Source: a virus
IMG/VR virus record: IMGVR_UViG_3300044641_001857
Coordinates: 1 to 32,152 of that record
Direction: 5' to 3' (one strand)
DNA length: 32,152 nucleotides
The notes beneath the pieces were generated by a model. That model searched no databases, was not told where the DNA came from, and worked only from the letters and a program-made list of their open reading frames with translations. Positions 20,962 to 32,152 of this stretch are shown piece by piece. Every line of letters begins with the position of its first letter. Within the stretch, counting starts at the first letter, position 1. The position numbers and the translations under genes are program-made.

Positions 20962-21143
20962 TTCTTTGTTTTAAAATCTTTGTAGAACTTTAAAATATGT
21001 AAATACATTTCGTTTATATACTCTGACTCGTCATACATTAACATACATGATTTATGAAAGTCTTGAAACGTTCCGTAATCAGTTATAATCCAACGTCTTA
21101 ACGGCAATTGAAGTATTTGTTTAAGAAGTTCTCTGTTTTCCAT
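20958..21143 (-). CDS. Hypothetical protein, first gene after a promoter
   Basis: A 61-residue protein, MENRELLKQILQLPLRRWII then an aromatic, acidic region (YGTFQDFHKSCMLMYDESEY) and a basic end. The -7 box at 21148-21155 ends only 4 nt before the ATG, so the message may be leaderless. The gene opens the cluster with the sigma-like factor and terminase. Function unknown. Confidence 0.65.
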   Translation of the reverse strand: MENRELLKQILQLPLRRWIITDYGTFQDFHKSCMLMYDESEYINEMYLHILKFYKDFKTKK

Positions 21144-21147
21144 GAAG

Positions 21148-21176
21148 CAAATATAATTATTTTTTTATATTACAAG
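21148..21176 (-). promoter_or_regulatory. Promoter for the sigma / late region, possibly leaderless
   Basis: On the minus strand TATATTTG (21148-21155) matches TAnnTTTG and CTTG (21173-21176) lies upstream with 17 nt between TTG and the -7 box. The 14 bases TATATTTGCTTCAT are the same as in the promoter at 31249. Start of transcription is expected about 5-7 nt after the box, which coincides with the AUG at 21143. Confidence 0.55.
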
Positions 21177-30807: not shown

Positions 30808-31092
30808 TTAGTTTGATATACCTATACCGTATGAATAGTCTCTTGACATTTCATAACCTTTCCAATATTTATAAACTGTCTTTGAAGCGTTTATTTCATC
30901 AAAATAAACAGTTTCTTTGTAAAACTCATTCCATTCGCTTTGAATACTTCTTAACTTTTCTTGGTAATATTCATAAGCAATAGCAGATATTTCTTTTAAA
31001 TTATCTATTTCAGCTACTTTTTTAATACTTGCAATATCTGATTTATATAATTCGTATTGCTCAACTGCTTTGTTAAATGTCATCATTTCCAT
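30808..31092 (-). CDS. Hypothetical protein, first gene after the hammerhead leader
   Basis: A 94-residue helical acidic protein, MEMMTFNKAVEQYELYKSDI then a long helix and aromatic end (YKYWKGYEMSRDYSYGIG). Starts at 31092, 31086 or 31083 are all possible. It is the first gene of the second early unit, 20 nt downstream of the ribozyme. Function unknown; gene context suggests a role early after infection. Confidence 0.65.
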   Translation of the reverse strand: MEMMTFNKAVEQYELYKSDIASIKKVAEIDNLKEISAIAYEYYQEKLRSIQSEWNEFYKETVYFDEINASKTVYKYWKGYEMSRDYSYGIGISN

Positions 31093-31111
31093 AATTTATA
31101 TTTTTTAGTTT

Positions 31112-31164
31112 AATCTTTTCGTTCTTTTGAACTCATCAGTTAAGGCACACACCTTAAGAAGATT
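31112..31164 (-). ncRNA. Type III hammerhead ribozyme in the 5' leader of an early operon
   Basis: All conserved core bases are present in minus-strand RNA. Stem III is AAUCUU (31164-31159) with AAGAUU (31117-31112), including the A15.1-U16.1 pair. C17 is 31158, the cleavage site (NUH triplet UUC). Stem I is UUAAGG (31157-31152) with CCUUAA (31145-31140), loop UGUGUG. The core CUGAUGA is 31139-31133. Stem II is GUUC (31132-31129) with GAAC (31124-31121), loop AAAA. G12A13A14 is 31120-31118. Stems I and II are closed and stem III open, hence type III. Cleavage would separate an about 86-nt leader from the coding part. Not tested. Confidence 0.88.
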
Positions 31165-31214: not shown

Positions 31215-31248
31215 TCAGAAATAAAGAACGTTTTCTCGTTGTATGAAG

Positions 31249-31281
31249 CAAATATAGTTATTCTTTTTTGTAATTAACAAA
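31249..31281 (-). promoter_or_regulatory. Promoter of the hammerhead-led early operon
   Basis: The -7 box TATATTTG (31249-31256) is preceded by TTTG (31278-31281) at 21 nt, an optimal Bacteroidetes arrangement. Transcription should start near 31243, leaving an about 150-nt leader before the first start codon. It lies just after the terminator that ends the SSB unit. Confidence 0.75.
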
Positions 31282-31313: not shown

Positions 31314-31343
31314 AAAAAAACCTAACTCATTACAAGCTAGGTT
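31314..31343 (-). terminator. Rho-independent terminator after SSB
   Basis: In minus-strand RNA a 9-bp stem (31335-31343 with 31319-31327, one G-U pair) with a 7-nt loop is followed by a run of U (31314-31320). It lies 24 nt after the SSB stop codon and separates the recombination operon from the ribozyme-led operon. Confidence 0.8.
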
Positions 31344-31366: not shown

Positions 31367-31654
31367 TCAAAAAGGAAGCGAGTCGTCTTTTTTAGGATCA
31401 TTTGCTACATTTTCAACTTCCTTTTCAGCTACTTTAATAACGTTGTCCGTCCAAACTACTTTACCATTTGCAATATATTGCTTTGGCGTTTTAGCATCTC
31501 TTTCGTCTTTTGTTTGACTATACGCCATACTTACATTGTTACCATACTTTGTTTCATCATTGATAAATATTTGTGTATTTAAATATTTACCGTCTACTAA
31601 TCTACCTTTATCTACCTTTGATAAATCAATACTTAAATTTAAAATTGCTGACAT
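31367..31654 (-). CDS. ssb: Single-stranded DNA-binding protein
   Basis: A 95-residue protein with strand-rich OB-fold-like character (ILNLSIDLSKVDKGRLVDGK, LNTQIFINDETKYGNNVSMA, KQYIANGKVVWTDNVIKVAE) and a linker leading to the acidic tip DDSLPF, like the DDDIPF tail by which SSBs recruit replication and repair proteins. It is short for the family. It protects single-stranded DNA and works with the ERF annealing protein of the same operon. Confidence 0.8.
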   Translation of the reverse strand: MSAILNLSIDLSKVDKGRLVDGKYLNTQIFINDETKYGNNVSMAYSQTKDERDAKTPKQYIANGKVVWTDNVIKVAEKEVENVANDPKKDDSLPF

Positions 31655-31730: not shown

Positions 31731-32152
31731 TTACTTGTTTTTAACTGCTAAACTACTTTTGCTAAACGTTACGATAGGAACATCTAAAACCTCCCCTGTT
31801 TGTTCATTAAGCGAAGATATATTATTCTTTTGATTTTCGTACACCGATTTGTATTTATTCTCAATTTGCCTTAAGTTTTCTTTTGCTTCGTTCCATTCTG
31901 CAATATTACTAAAATCAAACTGTTTTCTTCCCTCCGTTCGTGTGAAAGTGTATGAACCGATTTTAAACGTTTTGTCGTACTTTTCTGATTCATTGTAAGC
32001 CAATGTATCAATTTGTTTTTTCGCATCGTTAAAACGCTTCTCTAGTTCTTTAAATACTGCGAAGGCTTCTAGGCTTGAAGTAAAACCTAAATCTACGTTT
32101 CTGATTACTAAATCAATTTGATTTTGAATAACGTTAATTGAATCGGTAGTTA
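31731..32152 (-). CDS. Unknown recombination-operon protein, C-terminal part (gene split by contig ends)
   Basis: This is the remainder of the gene that begins at 182. Positions 32026-32152 duplicate 1-127. The reading frame is open to the right-hand end with no ATG inside the window, and joining the ends restores 158 codons. An apparent internal start at a TTG (32003) is not needed. The end reads KSVYENQKNNISSLNEQTGE then VLDVPIVTFSKSSLAVKNK. The stop is 76 nt before the SSB start. Function unknown. Confidence 0.85.
   Translation of the reverse strand, partial: TTDSINVIQNQIDLVIRNVDLGFTSSLEAFAVFKELEKRFNDAKKQIDTLAYNESEKYDKTFKIGSYTFTRTEGRKQFDFSNIAEWNEAKENLRQIENKYKSVYENQKNNISSLNEQTGEVLDVPIVTFSKSSLAVKNK
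32026..32152. repeat. Terminal direct repeat, right copy
   Basis: Identical over 127 bases to positions 1-127, and in the same reading frame of the junction gene. It shows that the contig can be closed to a circle. Confidence 0.95.

Follow-up and report, generated by a model that had tools for sequence, protein, structure and literature searches.

A type III hammerhead in the leader of a phage replication operon

What would a tailed phage gain from a hammerhead placed between a promoter and the first gene of its replication operon? The question is raised by a viral DNA of 32,152 nucleotides (positions 1 to 32,152 of IMG/VR record IMGVR_UViG_3300044641_001857; hereafter the window, meaning this whole stretch), in which the original prediction had described a type III hammerhead in the leader of an early operon.

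The locus and its hammerhead

The window carries the genes of a tailed phage, including a terminase, a tape measure, a DNA exonuclease, a DnaD-like loader, and a primase/helicase sharing 50% identity with its counterpart in Tenacibaculum phage JQ. An exact 127-bp direct repeat occupies the two ends (1-127 and 32026-32152) and, together with relatives that cross the junction, indicates that the record is probably complete and circularly closed or permuted, with a length of ~32,025 bp.

The predicted promoter is present where it had been placed and consists of TTTG (31281-31278), 21 nt, and TATATTTG (31256-31249), with identical spacing in two relatives (L018 and L169); this TTTG-N21-TATATTTG arrangement is presumably of the Bacteroidetes type. 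In combination with the JQ-like primase/helicase, it points to a host among the Flavobacteriia. A second copy of the promoter region (21123-21166, minus strand; 83% identical over 44 bases, ending in TATATTTGCTTCATG) directly precedes a small gene, with no ribozyme there. Upstream of the promoter, the hairpin that follows the ssb-like gene keeps its position in most close relatives and was not flagged by an automatic terminator scan; as a putative terminator, it may insulate the leader from upstream transcription. Downstream, the first gene of the operon has no PHROG match, is identical in two relatives (L011 and L012), and is replaced by other genes at the same place in L018 and L169. It is followed by a replication-initiator-like gene, an exonuclease, the DnaD-like loader, and the primase/helicase, and since the operon carries replication genes it is presumably early. 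The hammerhead lies between the promoter and the start of this first gene, in agreement with the original prediction (Table 1).

Table 1. Features of the promoter, leader, and hammerhead in the window
Feature	Position	Strand	Basis
Upstream 95-aa gene, phrog_24909 (unknown function)	31367..31654	-	acidic DSLPF-type tail as in ssb-like proteins
Intrinsic-terminator-like hairpin AACCTAGCT...AGTTAGGTT + T run	31314..31342	-	direct reading; after ssb-like gene
Bacteroidetes-type promoter (presumed), TTTG-N21-TATATTTG (-33/-7)	31249..31281	-	consensus and spacing as in L018, L169
Leader hairpin P0, 10-bp stem GGTAAGCATT / GATGTTTACC, conserved loop	31166..31214	-	pair changes over 4 sequences
Hammerhead ribozyme, type III	31112..31164	-	core complete; R1 71 bits; two compensatory stem II changes in L169
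Stem III 5' strand AATCTT	31164-31159	-	direct reading
C17	31158	-	direct reading
Predicted cleavage site	31158/31157	-	hammerhead core
Stem I + loop TTAAGG-TGTGTG-CCTTAA	31157-31140	-	direct reading
Core CTGATGA	31139-31133	-	direct reading
Stem II + loop GTTC-AAAA-GAAC	31132-31121	-	direct reading
Core GAA	31120-31118	-	direct reading
Stem III 3' strand AAGATT	31117-31112	-	direct reading
Predicted processed-mRNA 5' untranslated region	31093..31157	-	inferred from cleavage site and ATG at 31092
First gene of downstream operon, 94 aa, no known family	30808..31092	-	ORF list

The coordinates and bases originally given for the element proved exact. The core (CUGANGA...GAA, A15.1-U16.1, and H17, not G) is complete in the window and in four relative contigs, and it joins three stems of 6 bp (III), 6 bp (I), and 4 bp (II). 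With stem III open and loops capping stems I and II, the topology is type III, as had been called, on the sense strand of the operon. For the isolated element, the minimum free energy fold is the hammerhead secondary structure, and its folding energy is unremarkable (z -1.4). Adding the leader places this fold 2.4 kcal/mol higher than the most stable one predicted, a difference that is ordinary for the family (median, 2.1). The UGUGUG and AAAA loops co-occur in many copies whose stems differ, a pattern that would be consistent with contact between loops I and II. Judged on its sequence, this is an authentic type III hammerhead of canonical form, and the observation is confirmed at that level.

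The P0 hairpin ends 1 nt before stem III. Over four sequences its stem shows one compensatory pair (G-C to A-U), two one-sided changes, and one mismatch (L011), and its loop is nearly invariant among the window and the relatives. From the cleavage site to the ATG there are 65 nt. A six-codon frame (31174-31154, minus strand; ATG/GTG then TTT AYC AAA TCT TMT TAA) runs across the cleavage site; its conservation in the relatives may be due to chance. Matches in the leader to the Rfam families CAESAR, L10 leader, and a microRNA were sub-threshold and were taken as chance.

Relatives and the wider phage family

Covariance models, which the original prediction had named as a check, gave outcomes that depended on the model. 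The Rfam search produced no match at the gathering cut-off, and under permissive settings RF00008 (Hammerhead_3) scored 24.4 bits against a cut-off of 48.5 bits (E 0.007 for 501 bases, 0.45 for the window). A model built from 48 type III hammerheads of other phages, from which this phage and its relatives were excluded (R1), gave the element a score of 71 bits (E 5e-20), its sole match in the window. As none of the type III copies from the 14 phage loci tested reaches the RF00008 gathering cut-off either, the low score limits the reach of the Rfam model, not the identity of the RNA. Within the R1 family, 98.5% of cells are paired, compared to 37–48% in sliding controls, and 13 of 15 pairs have changes on both sides, values that partly reflect selection in that the rows were picked by a detector requiring stems.

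Using the 95-aa gene upstream of the promoter as the query, 54 relatives were found in viral contigs. R1 located the element at the same leader position in 3 of these loci (L011, L012, and L018) and in L169 (67.8–71 bits), and detected none in the other 51. The four contigs with the element represent three distinct sequences. In many close relatives (L003-L010, L013, L014, L019, and L020), the terminator and promoter lead to a short leader without a ribozyme; since most close relatives lack the element, it is not essential. Where present, it belongs to a unit of ~127 nt that extends from AACGTTCTTT to GATTAAAC and in which the window and relatives share 90% identity in the leader and 92.5–100% in the hammerhead, compared to 48–65% in the 5' flank; the downstream genes are not the same in the window, L018, and L169. 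With its diverged flank and differing next genes, the conserved unit behaves like a module that this promoter can acquire or lose. Covariation in related phages, a further check that had been proposed, was found in stem II, where L169 carries two compensatory changes (GUUC/GAAC to GUCU/AGAC, among four distinct sequences). Stems I and III are invariant, the cleavage site holds C or A, each of which is permitted there, and the core is kept throughout the carriers.

Beyond these relatives, R1 had no match in Tenacibaculum phage JQ, Flavobacterium phages 11b and sniff9-2, Cellulophaga phage phi19:1, or two other phage records. The bacterial genomes searched for the leader unit yielded none, and when phage records were searched for DNA similar to this region, only AT-rich or promoter-length matches came back.

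A search of 2.9 million viral contigs for a hammerhead half-pattern (CTGATGAGTTC-N3-8-GAACGAAA) returned 110 stretches, compared to 2 for the reversed pattern of equal composition and stem. A script recognized complete hammerheads at 99 of the 105 distinct sites (76 type III and 23 type I), compared to only 3.8% of half-pattern sites with shuffled flanks. Based on simple ORF calls in the fetched contigs, intergenic type III copies mostly lie between co-directional genes (58 of 68), at a median of 33 nt past the stop codon and ~25 nt before the next start. The 34 nt preceding stem III fold strongly (mean, -11.2 kcal/mol; z -3.1), and 79 of the 109 type III copies have a hairpin ending ≤3 nt from stem III, compared to 2 of 40 type I copies and 48 of 339 random positions. 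When copies were grouped into clusters at 75% identity, a strong abutting hairpin was present in 36 of 60 type III clusters versus 2 of 35 type I clusters, and in 30 of the 36 the gap to stem III was 0 nt. These hairpins are unlike one another in sequence; they could protect the upstream 3' end or stack on stem III. In the window, P0 follows the same type III layout of hairpin, hammerhead, and start codon, with a larger loop.

Sampled records of 38–96 kb mostly hold 3–5 hammerhead copies each. Among L059-L166 (e.g., L066, L115, and L163), which are uncultivated phages of ~40–65 kb, 3–5 type III copies fall within a few kb, and in L163 type III hammerheads occur upstream of recombination genes. 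Phage type I copies (L081, L084, L091, and others) often overlap or touch the upstream stop codon (approximately -5 to 5 nt), unlike the type III copies. Type III hammerheads found with R1 also occur in Patescibacteria bins (L174, L186, L193, L194 [Saccharibacteria], and L184 [Parcubacteria]), perhaps as prophages or misbinned phage contigs.

From this layout it is tentatively proposed, at somewhat less than even probability, that in tailed phages a hairpin stacked on a type III hammerhead ~25 nt before a start codon may serve as a standard unit of RNA punctuation in place of terminators and promoters, leaving a protected 3' end upstream and an mRNA with a 5'-OH and a hairpin cap; the version in the window follows a promoter. 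Open-access papers yielded no published description of the hairpin-hammerhead layout, and one may exist elsewhere.

Predicted processing of the leader and competing readings

For the window, the reading that we consider probable is that a canonical type III hammerhead cuts the nascent early transcript co-transcriptionally, unaided and unregulated, and gives an mRNA with a 5'-OH and a hairpin cap. Transcription would start near 31243, and the RNA would fold P0 first and the hammerhead next. We infer self-cleavage of the window element from its family; the cut would fall between 31158 and 31157. The upstream product would be a leader of ~85 nt that ends in a hairpin and a short tail bearing the 2',3'-cyclic phosphate. 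The downstream product would be the replication-operon mRNA, in which the stem I hairpin itself carries the 5'-OH, at U31157. Such products, a leader RNA and a 5'-OH mRNA ending in stem I, had been anticipated in the original prediction and would follow from the sequence. The 5'-OH hairpin end should be resistant to decay initiated from a 5' phosphate, and cleavage would fix the translation leader of the operon mRNA. In other phages, an intergenic hairpin and hammerhead would divide long transcripts into mRNAs with protected ends; in the window the unit follows a promoter and does not lie between genes, so the upstream product would be just a leader.

The released leader could instead be the functional product, a stable small RNA that acts in trans through its conserved loop and whose 3' end is trimmed by the hammerhead. 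The conservation of the leader relative to its 5' flank, the nearly invariant loop, and the differences between relatives in the first downstream gene would suit such an RNA. With only four related sequences, however, the leader conservation is explained equally well if the unit spread recently; no target was identified, and the hammerhead occurs in other phages that do not have this leader. Overall, a trans-acting leader appears unlikely.

Likewise unlikely is a regulated ribozyme, in which the leader segment CGUUCUUU (31230-31223) pairs with AAAGAACG (stem II and core) and holds the hammerhead off until a signal arrives, perhaps one bound by the P0 loop, whose near invariance would accord with such a role. 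Consensus folding of the four leaders favours the CGUUCUUU/AAAGAACG helix, and when folding begins just before CGUUCUUU the switch helix beats the hammerhead by ~4 kcal/mol in three of the four. Yet the preference amounts to 2.4 kcal/mol when folding begins near the transcription start, a gap that 72 of 200 shuffled leaders match, and an 8-nt leader match arises in 157 of 2000 shuffles. Further, L169 alters stem II and breaks the helix without compensation. With the helix broken in L169, and with both its length and its energy gap matched by shuffles, the leader-controlled switch is unsupported.

A decayed or chance hammerhead-like sequence, inactive as a ribozyme, would fit the Rfam score below the curated cut-off but is very improbable given the 71 bits from the held-out R1 model, the invariant core in all relatives, the compensatory changes in stem II, and the fact that the same cut-off misses every other phage copy tested.

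The preferred reading remains unregulated self-cleavage of the leader. The window offers a clean, compact hammerhead in a fixed leader, and since some close relatives have none, the leader can be compared directly with and without the element. The phage type III copies as a group share a precise layout of hairpin, hammerhead, and start codon.

Comparison with known hammerheads

The window element is a member of a large, mostly unannotated family of phage hammerheads that precede start codons, a kind that is already known. Since the default Rfam cut-off misses the phage type III copies, routine annotation underestimates their number. The original suggestion that a type III form in a Bacteroidetes phage mRNA leader would be new is not supported, as Perreault 2011 (PMC3088659) found all three types in prophages and De la Pena 2020 (PMC7761336) states that all three topologies are reported in phages. 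The role of hammerheads in phages was described as still open in De la Pena 2017 (PMC6155905).

According to Perreault 2011 (PMC3088659), types I, II, and III are common in bacteria and prophages, and clusters of sense-strand hammerheads border prophage genes, for which processing of long phage RNA into single-gene mRNAs was proposed; the passages searched make no mention of an abutting hairpin in type III copies. The same paper, a precedent for phage transcript processing and for cleavage in vivo, also describes HHphage of haloviruses HF1/HF2. It precedes the first ORF of an early polycistronic transcript by 13 nt, and the 5' end mapped for that transcript is ≤3 nt from the cleavage site. HHphage resembles the window element in occupying the first-gene leader of an early, replication-related polycistronic phage transcript, and in the proposal that cleavage in vivo sets the mRNA 5' end, which is likewise proposed here. 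It differs in its atypical core with insertions and its archaeal host, whereas the window element has a canonical type III core and 65 nt between cleavage and start. The sTRSV-type hammerheads of plant satellites (RF00008) share the type III topology, the core, and the short loops I and II; they process the multimers of circular RNA replication, whereas the copy in the window sits in the mRNA leader of a DNA phage.
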